Below are positions 24,027 through 30,826 of a DNA stretch of 64,000 nt, piece by piece. Made by a program: the position numbers and the translations under genes. The notes below the pieces were generated by a model. It made no database searches. It worked only from the letters and a program-made list of their open reading frames with translations, and was not told the origin of the DNA. Location of the stretch: assembly GCF_017168335.1 (NCBI RefSeq), contig NZ_JABFAU010000015.1, forward strand, positions 14,075 to 78,074, given 5' to 3'. Source of the stretch: Rhodococcus sp. KRD162 (lineage in GTDB: Bacteria > Actinomycetota > Actinomycetes > Mycobacteriales > Mycobacteriaceae). How positions within the stretch are numbered: the first letter of the stretch is position 1; each line of letters begins with the position of its first letter.

Positions 24027-24737
24027 TCACATGAACAGTGGGGGAAGGGCGAGAACCATCACTGCCGACCAACTGACATGGGTGAGGATCGGGGCGAGTA
24101 TTCCGCCGGAGGCCCGTCGCTGCAGGCCCATCACATACCCCAGCAGCACTGCGGCGAAGCCCAGCATCGGGTTGCCCGAGGCGAGGGTGGCGATGGCATA
24201 GATGACCGTCGAGATGACGACCGGATGCCTGATTCCGATTGCCGCATACAACGCCCCGCGAAAGAAGATCTCCTCGGCAACGCCGTTGAGCAGGGTGATG
24301 AACACGATGAGCACCAGCGAACCCGTCCTGGCGTGCGCGAGCACATTCTCGGTGAAGTCTGCCAGCGGCGGTATCTGTCGAACCACGAGGCCGCCGAGCA
24401 TGAACACCCCACCGACGGCGAGACCGATCAGAATGGGGGTGACAATCGGTCGCCGGATCGACCCGCCGACCACTATCCGCCCCAGGTGCAGCGGGCCGGA
24501 CAATAATCCGCCCACCGTCCAGACCGCCGCCAACAGCAGCGTCAGCGTGTAGAAGGACGGGTCCCCAGGCTCGACCTGGAGTGAGAAGTAGAGCACCGTG
24601 GCGCCGATCACCAACGTGATCAACACGATGATTCGCCGCTTGCGGAACGCGGCGTCGGATTCTCTGTGGTCCCGCTCCACCGGGTCCACGAGAGCGGATT
24701 TCATCACGTTCAGCGCGGTCGTCGACCACGTTCCCAT
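24027..24737 (-). CDS. CPBP-family intramembrane protease
   Basis: A 236-residue membrane protein with about six to seven hydrophobic segments. It has the CPBP (Abi/Rce1-like) signature AEEIFFRGALY, containing the Glu-Glu-xxx-Arg catalytic site, and a later HVSWS histidine motif. The family includes prenyl-protein proteases and bacteriocin-immunity proteins, and substrates are mostly unknown. The ATG at 24737 has GAGGAGG 4 bases before it. It overlaps the stop of the upstream NAD(P)-binding gene by one base (TGATG), so the two are translationally coupled. Confidence 0.85.
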   Translation of the reverse strand: MGTWSTTALNVMKSALVDPVERDHRESDAAFRKRRIIVLITLVIGATVLYFSLQVEPGDPSFYTLTLLLAAVWTVGGLLSGPLHLGRIVVGGSIRRPIVTPILIGLAVGGVFMLGGLVVRQIPPLADFTENVLAHARTGSLVLIVFITLLNGVAEEIFFRGALYAAIGIRHPVVISTVIYAIATLASGNPMLGFAAVLLGYVMGLQRRASGGILAPILTHVSWSAVMVLALPPLFM

Positions 24738-25921
24738 CAGGCCTCCTCGGTATCGGTCAGCCGACGCAGGGCGGAACTCACACGTCGATTCACACCGGCC
24801 GCCACGTCGAGGTTGGTGCGTACTGCGGCCGCAACGGGTTTCGAGGCCAGTAACCGACGGCCACCGAGAGCTTCGATCAGACCCCAGGTGCCATCGGACG
24901 ATGCCGCGACACCGCGTCGCCGGACTCCCAGTGCGTCGCCGCCGCTCCATGCTGCGTCGGTGTTCGCGAGCCGAAGCGGATCCTTGAGCGCACAGACACC
25001 GGGAGGCTCCCCGACCTGACCGAGGACACCGCGGGCCATGGCGTCTGCGATGGTGGTCAGACCGAGAGGCGGGTCGGGGACGAGTGCGCGTATGCGGCTC
25101 TCGGATGTGGTCATCGTGTTGTGCAAGGAACCCACCAGGTCCTCGGCGAGCCCGGCAGGCACCGGGATGATTCTGCCGATCACCTTGCCTGCGACCGAGG
25201 TCGGAACGAACGGCACCGGAACGCCGATGCGTTGGAGACCGGCGGCTTCGACGTAGGCGAACACCAGATCGCGGTAAGGCACCACGTCCGGCCCGCCGAT
25301 GTCGTAGGAACCCGCGGGAACTGTCTCGGGATCGGCCGATGCGGCCAGGTAGTGCAGCACATCGTCGATGGCGATGGGCTGCACGGGTTCGTCGAGCCAG
25401 CTCGGGAGAGGGAGCACCGGCAGACGGTCGGCGAGGTAACGCAACATCTCGTACGAGGTGGACCCGGCACCCAGGACGATGGCCGCCCGCAGCCAGACCA
25501 ACTCGACGCCGTCGACCGTCAACGCTTCCCCGACGTCTGCTCGACTCGCGAGATGCTCGGAGAGCCGATCGTCGTCGGGTACGAATCCGCCGAGATAGAC
25601 GATTCGGCCTACTCCCGCGGTGGCCGCGGCGGCGGCGAACTGCTCGGCAGACCTACGGTCCTGGGCGCGGTAGTCGGATTCGCCGATGGCATGCACGAGG
25701 TAGTAGGCCACGTCGATGTGACCTGATTCCTCGAACGCCGCCGCGCAGGACTGTTCGTCGGTCACGTCGAGGGCGACCGCGGTCACCGAGTCGTAGTAGT
25801 CGAAAGCGCGTAGGTTCGCGGGCGTGCGCGACACGACAACGACGTCGACATCCTCGGCGAGGAGGGCTGCCACCAGTCGTGACCCGACGTATCCGCTGGC
25901 ACCGGTGACGAGGGCTCTCAT
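24737..25921 (-). CDS. NAD(P)-binding (atypical SDR) protein
   Basis: The 394-residue product opens with the Rossmann motif ALVTGASGYVGSRLVAALL. It then has the atypical-SDR pattern seen in NmrA-like and DUF2867-type proteins: HAIGESDYRAQDRRSAEQFA, a GRIVYLGGFVP strand, and a QPIAIDDVLHYL segment. No classical YxxxK catalytic pair is evident at the expected place. The last 100 residues are an extension without a recognised fold. It precedes and is coupled to the CPBP protease gene. Reaction unknown; a redox or nucleotide-sensing role is possible. Confidence 0.75.
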   Translation of the reverse strand: MRALVTGASGYVGSRLVAALLAEDVDVVVVSRTPANLRAFDYYDSVTAVALDVTDEQSCAAAFEESGHIDVAYYLVHAIGESDYRAQDRRSAEQFAAAAATAGVGRIVYLGGFVPDDDRLSEHLASRADVGEALTVDGVELVWLRAAIVLGAGSTSYEMLRYLADRLPVLPLPSWLDEPVQPIAIDDVLHYLAASADPETVPAGSYDIGGPDVVPYRDLVFAYVEAAGLQRIGVPVPFVPTSVAGKVIGRIIPVPAGLAEDLVGSLHNTMTTSESRIRALVPDPPLGLTTIADAMARGVLGQVGEPPGVCALKDPLRLANTDAAWSGGDALGVRRRGVAASSDGTWGLIEALGGRRLLASKPVAAAVRTNLDVAAGVNRRVSSALRRLTDTEEA

Positions 25922-25975
25922 AGGTCGAGGTTAACGGCACTCGGTGCGTTGCGTCGGTATGGCATTGTCGCTCCT

Positions 25976-26581
25976 ATGGCTCTGGTGTTGGCAGGCGTGG
26001 TCCTCCCCGATCCCCTCGGTACCGAAACGGTGCTCCGACGCGGAGTCGCGGTGGCCAGGGTCGGCGCGAGTTGGTTGCTGACCACGACCGAGTTGGCGGT
26101 TACCCTGCCCGGCCGAATCGAAGCACTGTTGAGCAACATAGAGACATTGATGACACGGATCGACGCCGTGGTGGACTCCGCCGACGCGGTCGTGGCCAGG
26201 GTGGAGCGAACGACCGGTGCCGCGGACGCTGTGGTCACGACGGCATCGGCCGCCTCCGAGAGCGCATTGAGTGTGATCGAGTCGTTCGGTCCTATCGCCG
26301 AGAAATCTGCACCCATGGCGCGCAGATTCGTCGACAACCTGTCCGAGAACGAGGTCGACGCTGCGATCGCGATGGTCGATCAGCTACCCGGGCTCCTCGA
26401 CCACATGGAGGCTCTGCTTCCCATCCTCACCACCCTCGACACGGTGTCGCCCGAGATCCACGAGCTGCTCGGAGTGACCAAGGACGTCCGACGAGCCGTC
26501 ATCGGCATTCCCGGATTCAAGTTCTTCCGGAACCGCGGCGAGGACAAGCTTGCCGACGAGGAGCGAGAAGCAGAGCAGTAG
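25976..26581 (+). CDS. Helical hypothetical protein, about 200 aa
   Basis: I do not recognise a named family. From ATG 25976 the protein has a hydrophobic start, then a long heptad-like helical region rich in alanine, valine and threonine (about residues 45-130), with repeated VVDSADAVVARVE-like units. The C-terminus is charged. This pattern is typical of actinobacterial coiled-coil proteins of unknown role. The ribosome site is weak, and an in-frame ATG at 25949 would add 9 residues. It is divergent from the SDR gene with a 54-base gap and convergent with the acyl-CoA-dehydrogenase-like gene. Confidence 0.6.
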   Translation: MALVLAGVVLPDPLGTETVLRRGVAVARVGASWLLTTTELAVTLPGRIEALLSNIETLMTRIDAVVDSADAVVARVERTTGAADAVVTTASAASESALSVIESFGPIAEKSAPMARRFVDNLSENEVDAAIAMVDQLPGLLDHMEALLPILTTLDTVSPEIHELLGVTKDVRRAVIGIPGFKFFRNRGEDKLADEEREAEQ

Positions 26582-26585
26582 GCCG

Positions 26586-27704
26586 CTACTTCACGAAGGC
26601 GAACTCGTCGCCGGCGTGGAACCGAGCGAGAGTCTCCGAGATCGACCGTCGTGATGGTGGGTGAAATGCGAAGGCATGCAACGCCGCTGCGATGTAGCCG
26701 ATCTCCGGCGACTTGATGAACCCGATCCCACCGAGAGATTCGACCGCCGCCGAACTACCGCGCACCAACGCATCGCGAATCGCTACCCGATTGAACAGCA
26801 ATCGGACCGAGATGTCTTGCCCGCGTTCACCTTCGTCGAAGGCCCTGGCTACATTCTCGATCGCCGCCATGGATGTCTCCAATTCGGCAGCCGCCCGCAC
26901 GTACCCCTCGTAGTCCCCCTTGTCCTGCTCGATCATCCGCTCGAGCAGGGAGGTCGCTGCCCCGATGTAGTTGGCGGAGATCAACATTCCGAACCAGAGA
27001 TAGCCCGTCATCTCGTGCACGCCGTCGGGATCGTCTTCTTTGTTGGGCAGGACGAGACTCACCGGAACCTCGACGTCCTCGAGCACTACTTCCTCGCTCT
27101 GTGCCCCGGCCAGTATGTCGGTGGTCCAGAACGGCTTCACGCTCATCCCGGGCAGGCTCGACGGAATCAGCGCCACCGCACGTTCGCCGGAATCGATCTC
27201 GACGCTGCACGTCAACATGTCCATCGAGCGAGCCAGACTGCACGGCTTCTTGCTTCCGTTGACGATGTAGTTGTCACCCTTCTTCACCGCTGTCATCGTC
27301 GGGATGAACACGCTCCCACCGGTGACGCCCTCGGAGAATCCCGAGGCGACAATTGCCTTCTGATCGATCAGAGCCTTGATCAGCGCCCGGTCGTCGTCTG
27401 TGGCACCGCGCGCGAACTCCGTCAGCGAGGCAACCGACAGGTGGTGCATCGTGGTTCCCGCGCCGAGCGAGGGCGAGCGAGACCCGATGGCCCGCTGCGC
27501 ACGAACCGCGTCGATGGCCGGTGCGCCCAAGCCACCGAGCTCGGCGGGAACGACCAAGCCAGTTCCGCCGAACTCACGAAATTTGTCGATTGCGTCGGAA
27601 TCTCGAGCTTCCAATTGCGCGAGGGGCGTCTGGTCCAGATACGCCCACAAACCCGGAAGGTATTGCTCCAGAGTTTCTCTTTCGCGCACCATAAGGGCAG
27701 TCAT
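26586..27704 (-). CDS. Acyl-CoA-dehydrogenase-like flavoprotein
   Basis: The 372-residue protein has the ACAD fold: an N-terminal helical domain with GLVVPAELGGLG, a middle domain GVTGGSVFIPTMTAVKKGDNYIVNGSKKPCSLA, and a C-terminal helical domain ending near GGIGFIKSPEIGYIAA. Where fatty-acyl dehydrogenases carry an active-site glutamate in an EGT-type motif, this one reads AFAFHPPSRRSI. Dehydrogenase chemistry is therefore uncertain, and it may act as an oxidase or on a carrier-bound substrate. AAGGAG lies 7 bases before the ATG at 27704. It faces a divergent alpha-oxoamine synthase gene across 333 bases, suggesting shared control. Confidence 0.78.
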   Translation of the reverse strand: MTALMVRERETLEQYLPGLWAYLDQTPLAQLEARDSDAIDKFREFGGTGLVVPAELGGLGAPAIDAVRAQRAIGSRSPSLGAGTTMHHLSVASLTEFARGATDDDRALIKALIDQKAIVASGFSEGVTGGSVFIPTMTAVKKGDNYIVNGSKKPCSLARSMDMLTCSVEIDSGERAVALIPSSLPGMSVKPFWTTDILAGAQSEEVVLEDVEVPVSLVLPNKEDDPDGVHEMTGYLWFGMLISANYIGAATSLLERMIEQDKGDYEGYVRAAAELETSMAAIENVARAFDEGERGQDISVRLLFNRVAIRDALVRGSSAAVESLGGIGFIKSPEIGYIAAALHAFAFHPPSRRSISETLARFHAGDEFAFVK

Positions 27705-28037
27705 AGCTAATCTCCTTGTGTCAATGATTGAGTGCGACAAATCAGTCATGTACTGGTGGTGTTCAGTCTGGCGTTGAAGCAGGTGAATTCGCGCTGACCG
27801 TCAACGATACCCCGCGACCAGCATGGATAAACGTAAAGTTTCTTTAAAGGTCGCCGAGACAAAGAGACTACTCACATACTTTTGCTGCTCTTTTCCAACG
27901 GCCTGTTCAGATCTTTACCACGCAAACCACCGACGAATATTCTTCGCCTCGATACCCATCGGTCGACGCCACCGCTACGAATTACCTCAGAATTCGCGAA
28001 AATTGCAATCTGACTCTGTAAGGAGTTCTGGTCGATT
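27705..28037. promoter_or_regulatory. A/T-rich divergent regulatory region
   Basis: A 333-base gap with a run clearly poorer in G and C than the surroundings (about 27815-27900, containing the small palindrome CTTTAAAG). It probably holds the promoters of the divergent ACAD-like and alpha-oxoamine synthase genes. No RNA gene is seen, and a 77-codon frame inside it lacks coding character. Confidence 0.5.
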
Positions 28038-29267
28038 ATGGCTGTCAACAGACTGATGAAGCGGCTCGGCGGGGACGAACGAGTCGACCTGCTTCGCGCG
28101 GTACGGGAAGCGGACGTGGTCCCGTACTTTCGGAAGATGGAATCCGCCGTCGGGCCGGTCGTACGGGTCGAAGGCAAGGACAAGATCATGCTGGGCTCCA
28201 ACAACTACCTCGGCATCGCCGACCACCCCAAGGTCGTAGAAGGTGCCCAGCGCGCGTTGGACACGTTCGGTAGCGCAGTGACCGGAAGCCGGCTACTCAA
28301 CGGCACCCTGGACCTGCACCTCGAGCTAGAGCACGAAATCGCGCAGTGGCACGGCACGGACGACGCCCTGGTGTTCACTACCGGCTATCAAACCAACCTG
28401 GGCACGATCAGCGCGATCGTCGGTCCTGGGGATACCGTGATCGTCGATTCGGCGGCGCACGCCTCGATTCGCGACGGCAGTACGCTGTCCGGCGCGACGG
28501 TCGTCAAGTTCAGGCACAACGACATGGCCGATCTCGAGGCCAAACTCCAGCAGCCCGTCATCGATGACGGAGCTGTCCTGGTGATCGTCGACGGCCTGTA
28601 CTCGATGGAGGGCGATCTCGCACCGCTCGATGCGGTATCGGATCTGTGCCTGCGCTACCACGCAGCGCTGATGGTGGACGAAGCTCACAGCCTCGGGGTC
28701 TACGGACGCGAACTCACCGGAGCCGCTGAACTTTTCGGGATCGGAAAAGACGTCGACGTCACAATGGCGTCGTTGTCCAAGAGCCCGAGCTCCACCGGCG
28801 GCTTCGTCACCGGCTCCCGCGACCTCATCGACACGCTTCGCGTGAAGGCCCGCGCATTTCTGTTCACGACCTCCGGTGTTCCCGCAGCCGTCGGTGCATC
28901 TCTGGCCTCGGTCCGTCTGATCCGAAGTGACGAGGGCAAGGATCGCGCTCGACGGGTCCTCGACAATGCCGAAATCCTTCGCGGCGGACTGCAATCGGCC
29001 GGCCTCGATGTGGCCGGACGGTCCGATACGCCCACCGGCGATACTGCCTCACCGATCGTGTCACTGCACGTGGGCGACGATCTCGTCGCCATGGGCCTGT
29101 GGAAGACCTTGTACGACCGCGGAATATTCACCAGCGCGGCATTGCACCCAGCGGTGCCGAAATCCGGTGCTCTGCTTCGCTTGTGCGTGATGGCCACGCA
29201 CACCGAGCAGCAACTGGCCACCGCGACCGAGCAGATAGTGGAAGCGGTCGCAGGACTACCGTCATGA
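28038..29267 (+). CDS. Alpha-oxoamine synthase (PLP enzyme, serine palmitoyltransferase/BioF-like)
   Basis: The 409-residue protein belongs to the alpha-oxoamine synthase group, which joins an amino acid to an acyl thioester with loss of CO2. It has LGSNNYLGIADHP near residue 52, GSAVTGSRLLNGT, the PLP aspartate motif MVDEAHSLGVYG and the lysine in SLSKSPSSTGGF (Lys248). DEAHS-L/I-G followed by SKS resembles serine palmitoyltransferase and CqsA more than BioF (DDAHG). No biotin genes are nearby. AAGGAG lies 12 bases before the ATG, which is rather far. Its stop overlaps the next gene (ATGA), an epimerase-like reductase, suggesting reduction of the 3-keto product. Confidence 0.85.
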   Translation: MAVNRLMKRLGGDERVDLLRAVREADVVPYFRKMESAVGPVVRVEGKDKIMLGSNNYLGIADHPKVVEGAQRALDTFGSAVTGSRLLNGTLDLHLELEHEIAQWHGTDDALVFTTGYQTNLGTISAIVGPGDTVIVDSAAHASIRDGSTLSGATVVKFRHNDMADLEAKLQQPVIDDGAVLVIVDGLYSMEGDLAPLDAVSDLCLRYHAALMVDEAHSLGVYGRELTGAAELFGIGKDVDVTMASLSKSPSSTGGFVTGSRDLIDTLRVKARAFLFTTSGVPAAVGASLASVRLIRSDEGKDRARRVLDNAEILRGGLQSAGLDVAGRSDTPTGDTASPIVSLHVGDDLVAMGLWKTLYDRGIFTSAALHPAVPKSGALLRLCVMATHTEQQLATATEQIVEAVAGLPS

Positions 29268-30826
29268 GCGAGCAGCCGGGTGGTCTACGCATCGCAGTCA
29301 CCGGAGCCACCAGCGACTTCGCGGCCGCGATCCTTCCGACACTGTTCGACGATCCCGAGGTGGACACGGTCGTCGGAATTGCTCGCCGGCCGGCCCGTCT
29401 CGTCCATCCCAAGCTCACCTCGGTGCGCTCGGATATTCGCTCTCCGGACCTCGAGGAAATATTCGCCGGATGCGACGCGGTGCTGCATTTGGCATTCGTG
29501 GTCGAGGAACTTCGAGACAAGGCCGAGACTCACGACATCAACCTGCGTGGATCGCGGAACGTGATCGACTCCGCGTATCGAGCGGGCGCGTCGCGGGTGG
29601 TGATCGCGTCGAGCATCAATGCATACGGGGCCGATATCGCTCCGGAGCCGCTCACCGAGAACACTTATCCTGCAGGCGATCCCAATCGCTACTACTTCTA
29701 CGACAAGGCGGAGGTGGAGCACTACGCCGAGTGGTGGCTACGTAGACACCCCGGAGCGATGGCCATCTCGATGCTGCGGTGCACCTACATCGTCGGACCC
29801 GACTTCGCGAACGACGGAATCGACCAGTTCACCGGTCCGGTCGGAGCGTTTCCCGAAGCGGATCGCGCATCGTATCAATTCCTGTACCAGGACGACATGG
29901 CCGATGCGTTCCATCGTGCGGCCAAAACCGATCTCGTCGGTCCGTACAACCTCGGTCCGGTGGACTGGGTGGGAGTGCGCGAGCTTGCCGCGATGCAGGG
30001 CCAGCTGATGTTCGACGTACCCCAGAAAGCGGCCACCCGGGTGGCCGACATCGCCTTTCGGCTCGGCCTGACACCCTTCTCGGGCCAGTGGGTCACACCC
30101 GGTGAACCCATCGTCGATTCCTCGGCACTCGGACGCGCCACCGGCTGGGCACCGACACTGACCGCGCACGAGAGCGCCGCGATGATGATCCTGTTGCAGG
30201 GCAAGTCACTGCTGCGACGCGGTGACGCTCTCACACGCGGTATCGCCTGCGAAGCGGCGCTTCGTCCGGCCTCCGAAGCCGTCGGATTGTCGCGCTCGGC
30301 GATCGCAGCCCTGTCGGTGGAACATCGACAACTCGATACCAGTGACGGCAGCGTGCACGCGGAGATCCATCGAGCGCCCACCGAATCCACCCGGTCGGTG
30401 GTACTCCTCGCCGACGTGGGCACGCACGCGCGTTATCTGACCACGCTGGCTGCCGATATTGCCGCCGCAGGCGTGGACGTCGTGGTCCTCGACCTGCCCG
30501 GGCACGGACTCAGCACCGGTCCGCGAGGTCGGTCCTCGGCAGCGCAGACCACCGAGGCCATCGACGCGGCCCTACGATTCGCTCGAGTAGAACTCGAGAC
30601 CGTCCCGGTGACCGTGCGCAGCGGTACCCGCCACGCGGTGGACACGCTGATCAGCGGGATTCTCAGGCGAGCGACCGGCTGGAAAACTATGGAAGAACCC
30701 GACCACAGCGACGGGCTGCTGCCGCCGAGGACCCGGGCCGAGGGAACCGCCGATATTCCCTACGCGTCGACCGCAGCCGAGGCTCTTGCCCTGTGCACGA
30801 CACGGGCGGTCAGCGCCACCAGGTGA
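29264..30826 (+). CDS. NAD-dependent epimerase/reductase fused to a degenerate alpha/beta-hydrolase domain
   Basis: A 520-residue fusion coupled to the oxoamine synthase. Residues 1 to about 320 are an extended SDR: AVTGATSDFAAAIL (the glycine loop deviates from GxxGxxG), VLHLAFVVEE, ASSINAYG, and catalytic Tyr-xxx-Lys in YYFYDKAEVE. Residues from about 365 resemble the first half of monoglyceride-lipase-type hydrolases (VVLLADVGTHARYL, VVVLDLPGHGLSTGPRG). The domain ends after about 155 residues and has no GxSxG nucleophile. A substrate-binding or scaffold role is more likely than hydrolysis. The 3' end overlaps the convergent DUF1992 gene by 17 bases. Confidence 0.8.
   Translation: MSEQPGGLRIAVTGATSDFAAAILPTLFDDPEVDTVVGIARRPARLVHPKLTSVRSDIRSPDLEEIFAGCDAVLHLAFVVEELRDKAETHDINLRGSRNVIDSAYRAGASRVVIASSINAYGADIAPEPLTENTYPAGDPNRYYFYDKAEVEHYAEWWLRRHPGAMAISMLRCTYIVGPDFANDGIDQFTGPVGAFPEADRASYQFLYQDDMADAFHRAAKTDLVGPYNLGPVDWVGVRELAAMQGQLMFDVPQKAATRVADIAFRLGLTPFSGQWVTPGEPIVDSSALGRATGWAPTLTAHESAAMMILLQGKSLLRRGDALTRGIACEAALRPASEAVGLSRSAIAALSVEHRQLDTSDGSVHAEIHRAPTESTRSVVLLADVGTHARYLTTLAADIAAAGVDVVVLDLPGHGLSTGPRGRSSAAQTTEAIDAALRFARVELETVPVTVRSGTRHAVDTLISGILRRATGWKTMEEPDHSDGLLPPRTRAEGTADIPYASTAAEALALCTTRAVSATR

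Follow-up and report, generated by a model that had tools for sequence, protein, structure and literature searches.

The described amine N-hydroxylase closest to the protein considered here is that of valanimycin biosynthesis, the two-component flavin system VlmH/VlmR, which acts on isobutylamine supplied by an adjoining pyridoxal phosphate (PLP)-dependent enzyme; VlmH itself is given as 378 residues (PMC7347517). The same N-hydroxylase family is common to the aliphatic azoxy clusters (valanimycin, KA57-A and azodyrecin), and the azoxy survey of PMC9379638, which mined genomes for VlmA/VlmH pairs, has no alpha-oxoamine synthase (AOS) among the neighbour families named in the part of it considered here. 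Among described AOSs it is bacterial serine palmitoyltransferase (SPT) that offers the nearest comparison. The alpha-hydroxyketone synthases CqsA and LqsA, of the same superfamily, carry out amino-ketone chemistry that is followed by reduction. We describe three genes, here called the triad, at positions 26586-30826 of a stretch of 64,000 nucleotides from Rhodococcus sp. KRD162 (contig NZ_JABFAU010000015.1, positions 14,075 to 78,074; this whole stretch is the window of the text), in which an SPT-like AOS is coupled to a short-chain dehydrogenase/reductase (SDR) and diverges from a flavoprotein of the VlmH type. The triad is rather likely to represent a minimal pathway in which three enzymes make an N-oxidised (N-hydroxylated or oxime) sphingoid-like amino-lipid, with an AOS as the amine source in place of the decarboxylase or aminotransferase found with VlmH/VlmR and with Ady3/Ady10 of azodyrecin.

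The flavoprotein and the VlmH family

The flavoprotein gene (26586..27704, minus strand) encodes a protein of 372 residues, 'ACAD-like' in its resemblance to acyl-CoA dehydrogenases (ACADs), which is a candidate flavin-dependent amine N-hydroxylase by its homology to VlmH, its place in a tree and its replaced catalytic Glu positions. The reference VlmH comes from a valanimycin-type cluster on the Streptomyces sp. NBC_00212 plasmid NZ_CP108116.1, and was identified not by accession but by its neighbourhood and by a VlmO with D51, H82, H110 and D114, residues reported to be essential in this N-N enzyme (PMC11705231). Annotated as an 'acyl-CoA dehydrogenase family protein' of 379 residues, it lies between VlmA and VlmO/VlmR/VlmB, and the neighbours in its cluster include DGK, PrpD, SerRS, DUF2156, flavin reductase, 'VlmB-like' and PLP decarboxylase proteins. 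The window flavoprotein is 43.2% identical to this VlmH over 368 residues (E 3e-96) and has the FHPP motif in common with it; its matches to the ACADs of its own genome do not exceed 31% identity or 205 residues in length, as judged from 11 FadE rows (two of them one protein) that were retained from 13 matches, two being left aside. In a tree, 33 VlmH-type rows split from the 11 FadE rows at 98/99, with long branches flagged. At the low identity of the alignment, P349 and F238 occupy both catalytic-Glu columns, which are replaced in VlmH also; all 33 VlmH-type rows lack Glu at both columns, 10 of the 11 FadE rows have it at one of them, and the window protein thus lacks the catalytic Glu, at either known position, by which an acyl-CoA dehydrogenase would be recognised. 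An earlier note on this DNA had taken the flavoprotein for an ACAD variant with a non-canonical active site. The altered active site is real, with both Glu positions replaced, but the protein, judged by its sequence, is a member of the VlmH amine N-hydroxylase family, which makes the predicted product an N-oxidised base and not the plain sphingoid base that the note had suggested. Of the top 18 rows of a fold search with an AlphaFold model (pLDDT 80), flavin monooxygenases and nitrososynthases (DszC, TdsC, KijD3, MsuC and DnmZ types; Z 34.0-32.3) make up 16, a result that agrees with the VlmH-type assignment without being decisive. Relatives in public plasmid annotation carry the label 'acyl-CoA dehydrogenase family protein' too. 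As a separate observation, plasmid pC052_E of Nostoc sp. C052 (L184) encodes a VlmH-type flavoprotein 44% identical to that of the window. The genes next to it encode a class III aminotransferase, SRPBCC and GNAT proteins and a protein annotated as a nitric oxide synthase oxygenase.

The alternative that survives best has the flavoprotein oxidise the AOS product in another manner, by C-N dehydrogenation to an imine, by C-hydroxylation or to a nitroso or nitro compound, and so give an enamine, a pyrrole precursor or a nitro lipid. The ACAD superfamily does include amino-acyl-carrier dehydrogenases (ColB1, RedW and PigA) and nitrososynthases (DnmZ and KijD3), and all of these are among the matches to the window protein, ColB1 at Z 32.2, DnmZ at Z 32.9 and KijD3 at Z 33.1 in the fold search, and RedW and PigA by profile. 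The flavoprotein nevertheless falls inside the VlmH clade, with 43% identity over its full length and both catalytic Glu positions replaced, and we regard this alternative as unlikely.

Synthase, reductase and intergenic region

The AOS gene (28038..29267, plus strand) encodes a PLP enzyme of 409 residues that, by profile comparison, is an alpha-oxoamine synthase nearest serine palmitoyltransferase. The NCBIfam models for SPT are the best for it, at 381.8, 351.4 and 286.0 bits, albeit below their respective cut-offs of 640, 500 and 670; the bioF model comes third among all NCBIfam models (335.7 bits, cut-off 426.45), the CqsA/LqsA-type model reaches 205.7 bits (cut-off 428), and the Kbl score is also under its cut-off. 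BioF/Kbl and CqsA identities were rejected on these scores. A profile search of the PDB places bacterial SPTs on top (E 6.7e-102), and H141, D214, H217, K248 and R381 align with SPT; we take these to be the AOS active-site positions, with K248 as the PLP lysine. The enzyme differs from bacterial SPT in its score (382 bits against an equivalog cut-off of 640), in its N-hydroxylase partner and in forming a tree group of its own. The DEAHS-L-G and SKS motifs from which the earlier note had judged the synthase closer to SPT or CqsA than to BioF are present (as VDEAHSLG and LSKS), and the judgement holds for SPT, at 382 bits against 336 for bioF, but not for CqsA, whose model at 206 bits falls below bioF. 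It was also right that no biotin genes adjoin the triad: a separate bioF-like gene, for which bioF is the best model (393 bits, also below the cut-off of 426), is found on another contig, where a class III aminotransferase gene ends 3 bases upstream of it. A plasmid look-up with the AOS returned only AOSs of less than 60% identity. Another type of AOS, with about 35% identity to that of the window, occurs in genomes G010 and G018 (L073 and L074) and in other genomes of the genus, in L073 and L074 with no ACAD or SDR partner in the 1.5 kb flanks.

Downstream, and coupled to the AOS gene by an ATGA overlap of its start with the AOS stop, lies the gene for an extended SDR, a predicted ketoreductase, fused to half of an alpha/beta hydrolase (29264..30826, plus strand), assigned from Pfam and motifs. 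The SDR part covers residues 1 to about 300, with Y144xxxK148 and a Pfam Epimerase match (5.5e-22). The half-hydrolase (about residues 352-520, bases ~30317-30826) has a partial Pfam Hydrolase_4 match and resembles monoacylglycerol lipases in their first part only. Its sole GxSxG string, GLSTG at residue 415, is inside a PGHGxSTGxRG loop and presumably does not mark a nucleophile elbow, which appears to be absent; this placement was made by eye against a monoacylglycerol lipase sequence. The AlphaFold model of the whole protein is poor (pLDDT 59), and only the part from 352 to 453 (three strands, helix, strand, helix, strand; most blocks at pLDDT 67-92) fits half a hydrolase. Where measured (L137, L124, L125 and L141), the SDRs of the type C and E clusters described below have 305-314 residues and no hydrolase half, which indicates that the half is an add-on unneeded for the common reaction.

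These two enzymes carry the case for the earlier reading, in which the AOS and a CerR-like reductase make a long-chain base or ceramide-like product while the ACAD-like protein introduces a double bond into the acyl thioester. Formation of a 3-keto-amine followed by its reduction remains a sensible reading of an SPT-like AOS, as opposed to a BioF, coupled to a reductase, and both the nearness of the AOS to SPT and its coupling to the SDR speak for it. A plain base or ceramide as the end product is nonetheless improbable, given an ACAD-like protein that has neither catalytic Glu and is a VlmH homologue, and no N-acyltransferase occurs in the annotated part of the neighbours of AOS triads, except for the VlmA-like one of L120 and L121.

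The region between the divergent ACAD-like and AOS genes (27705..28037) measures 333 bp, and together with the coordinates and the ATGA overlap this confirms the arrangement of three genes, coupled AOS and SDR and divergent flavoprotein, that the earlier note had given. This presumed regulatory region common to both genes holds RBS-like sequences for each, AAGGAGA for the flavoprotein gene, just 5' of its ATG at 27704, and AGGAG for AOS. An alternative upstream start of the ACAD-like gene is open at 27749 (+45 bases), and would reduce the gap to 288 bp. The region is partly conserved in an alignment of eight relatives, with the AGGAG 5' of AOS invariant, and that alignment shows no clear operator. 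Scans of the window with Rfam (gathering scores) and for tRNAs found nothing.

Co-inheritance of the triad and its relation to azoxy clusters

The earlier note had proposed conservation of the three genes together as a check, and they are found together in all ten loci of named close relatives. These nearest named genomes are of Rhodococcus/Rhodococcoides, apparently of the R. fascians clade, with AOS identities of 92-94% in eight of the loci and 76% in two; among the other 33 AOS relatives, some of them on short contigs, ACAD adjoins none, and a short SDR match is seen in one. Within the genus an AOS of at least 57% identity is present in 27 of 37 genomes, and every one of the 26 such loci fetched carries ACAD and SDR-hydrolase genes beside AOS; three other AOS loci of the genus have neither ACAD nor SDR within 1.5 kb. 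By a hand tally AOS is present in 22/22 ACAD-positive and in 0/8 ACAD-negative genomes (the remaining seven of the 37 are outside the ACAD listing, and the genomes are related rather than independent), a co-occurrence far above chance.

Beyond the genus, an ACAD profile (E 1e-40) matches 60 of 301 genomes of the family, in 14 of 31 genera, and 26 of the 39 matched places outside the genus were fetched. AOS lies within 2.2 kb in 16 of these, a class III aminotransferase takes its place in eight, and two have neither. The 16 AOS loci span ten genera besides that of the window, so that at least 11 genera of this family have the AOS-flavoprotein pair, and the description 'not known from this genus' is too narrow. 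An SDR is within 4 kb in 14 of the 16, and is 8 to 9 kb from ACAD in the other two genomes (G172 and G062). Five gene orders were seen: ACAD divergent from AOS-SDR (A); ACAD/AOS-DUF2505, with MFS-SDR on the opposite strand, MFS denoting a major facilitator superfamily transporter (B); collinear AOS-SDR-ACAD, with an SDR that has no hydrolase (C); ACAD-AOS-SDR (D); and, in G172 and G062, a larger region with P450, MmpL, AOS and ACAD, then a reductase-like and a PPDK-like protein, a class III aminotransferase, VlmO, a FAD oxidase, VlmA and the distant SDR (E). Trees of AOS and of ACAD contain the identical four groups A, B, C+D and E, which indicates that the pair has been inherited together. 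MmpL is beside eight of the 16 AOS loci and an MFS beside two; within the genus, five type B loci carry this same MFS. In type B clusters a DUF2505 protein, presumably SRPBCC-like, is encoded directly 3' of AOS (L076, L078, L079, L080, L083, L118 and L119), and another polyketide cyclase family protein occupies a matching setting in azoxy-type clusters. In a sample of 396 genomes of the phylum, with five candidates scored per genome, a VlmH-type profile (E 1e-50) matches four. Two belong to the genus of the window and have AOS, and the other two, from a different family, have three copies between them, each beside VlmO; the VlmH-type protein is thus rare in this sample and tied to one of two settings.

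Three genomes without the triad (G008, G014 and G022) have flanking genes 78-94% identical to those of the window, the matched parts lying about 30-40 bases apart, as expected of a clean empty site. An otherwise empty site in G018 (L198, 1276-1494) retains a fragment that matches the ACAD-like N-hydroxylase over its residues 282-359, a sign of triad loss, and G010 has a gap of 1.2 kb there. The triad looks like a discrete unit, gained or lost whole. Two upstream neighbours were rejected as parts of the system, both being kept in all ten triad-less genomes of the genus: SDR0 (24737-25921) and a 210-residue protein (25949-26581) that has no Pfam or NCBIfam match. SDR0-like genes occur near the triad in L115, L117 and L139 also.

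Relatives of the flavoprotein that are not linked to AOS point to the azoxy systems. Beside some of them is a 158-residue membrane protein with D51, H82, H110 and D114, the very residues named above for VlmO, and their neighbourhoods include MmgE/PrpD proteins, a DGK-like protein and proteins of LPG_synthase_C, which is the Pfam family by which PMC9379638 recognises VlmA. A VlmO profile matches seven of the 301 family genomes, all of them ACAD-positive, with VlmO and ACAD in one stretch in six. The regions of G172 and G062 (L120, L121, L141 and L142) hold AOS, VlmH-type, VlmA and VlmO genes together, with no match seen to VlmB or VlmR, and from this gene content could be candidate azoxy clusters fed by an AOS-derived amine. 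Elsewhere, L128, L129 and L135 appear to be long-chain valanimycin-like azoxy clusters, with VlmA-, VlmH-, VlmJ- and VlmK-like genes and an aldehyde dehydrogenase; their amine is likely to come from a class III aminotransferase that they also encode. VlmO is present in L128 and L129, and not in the fetched stretch of L135.

That G172 and G062 hold all four genes in one region lends something to a third alternative, a complete azoxy pathway in the window's genome with VlmA, VlmO and VlmB encoded elsewhere. Unlike the valanimycin cluster, however, the window has no match to VlmR, VlmA, VlmO or VlmB, VlmH being the N-hydroxylase with which its flavoprotein was compared. In the whole genome (G000, 109 contigs, the window being on contig C18) a search for VlmO and VlmA gave no match to the VlmO profile and two weak matches (30% and 26%) to the VlmA-like query, inside open frames of 1104 and 893 codons that are presumably both of the LysX/MprF type. 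With no VlmO and no dedicated VlmA, the azoxy N-N steps are not expected in this genome, and the alternative is very improbable. The weakest, primary metabolism, in which the AOS would be an additional BioF or Kbl and its neighbours would have nothing to do with it, finds a footing in bioF as the third-best NCBIfam model (336 bits) but hardly deserves credence, since both models score under their cut-offs, another contig already has a bioF-like gene adjoining one for a class III aminotransferase, AOS follows ACAD through the 22 positive and eight negative genomes of the genus, and the pair persists through several gene orders in 11 genera.

Proposed pathway and implications

The sequences themselves show the enzyme families, the catalytic residues of AOS and SDR, the loss of the dehydrogenase base, the co-inheritance and the cassette nature of the triad; we infer the substrates, the order of steps, the product and its export from the enzyme families and from the characterised relative of the flavoprotein. 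The AOS would join an alpha-amino acid, whether Ser, Ala or Gly, to an acyl thioester with release of CO2, giving a 2-amino-3-ketone; the SDR would reduce the ketone to an alcohol; and the VlmH-type protein, as a two-component flavin monooxygenase, would hydroxylate the amine to a 2-(hydroxyamino)-3-alkanol, with a possible second oxidation to an alpha-hydroxy-oxime. In many relatives the product would probably be exported by the adjoining MmpL or MFS pump. The 2-hydroxylamino/alpha-hydroxy-oxime chemotype binds copper or iron well. A signalling role for the product, as suggested in the earlier note, finds no support.

Several observations weigh against this pathway. No match to the reference flavin reductase, VlmR, was found in the window or among the AOS-type loci that were searched, although the flavoprotein could be served by another flavin reductase of the cell. 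The AOS-linked flavoprotein group contains no member of known activity and is moderately supported, at 87/91 in the ACAD tree, as is the corresponding group of AOSs, at 88/67 in the AOS tree, and the sequence of the AOS does not reveal its amino acid, acyl donor or chain length. The fold search also returned, among its top 18 rows, a 'putative acyl-CoA dehydrogenase' (5gj7) at Z 33.1, then named CoA dehydrogenases from Z 31.7, and isovaleryl-CoA dehydrogenase is fourth in the Foldseek ranking. The association with a PLP enzyme is incomplete, with two of the 26 loci (L133 and L134) having neither type, and among the eight aminotransferase-type loci VlmO is found in four and VlmA in five, within the stretch fetched. 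The VlmO of G180 (L168, on contig C50) is on a contig other than that of ACAD, with no VlmH-type gene within about 9 kb, and neither a VlmH- nor a VlmA-like gene is seen in the 19.5 kb fetched around it. As for export, the window's cluster has no exporter, the stretches fetched around five of the 16 AOS loci contain neither MmpL nor MFS, and a sixth (L114) has only an MFS of 28% identity, 6 kb off.

A triad without VlmA would not be listed by a search for VlmA/VlmH pairs such as that described in PMC9379638. The main text of a survey of Rhodococcus specialised metabolism contains no mention of azoxy, oxononanoate, palmitoyltransferase or isobutylamine (PMC5550956), and among the papers listed by searches of an open-licence library, subscription papers being outside its scope, we found no description of a pairing of AOS with a VlmH-type protein. 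It is tempting, if more speculative, to suggest that AOS, ketoreductase and VlmH-type enzymes make long-chain 2-hydroxylamino or alpha-hydroxy-oxime lipids that are exported and form a class of their own, so far undescribed, present in at least 11 genera and missed by mining for VlmA beside VlmH, and that the module of G172 and G062 feeds VlmA and VlmO to give sphingoid-like azoxy lipids.

If the proposed pathway is correct, condensation of acyl and amino acid units would be a further route of amine supply to VlmH-type N-hydroxylases, besides decarboxylation and transamination, and the 'acyl-CoA dehydrogenase family protein' label of the relatives would be corrected. An as yet unseen N-oxidised lipid would then be predicted in many Mycobacteriales, and the triad would offer a short, testable set of genes, with the two clusters of G172 and G062 as bridges to azoxy biosynthesis.

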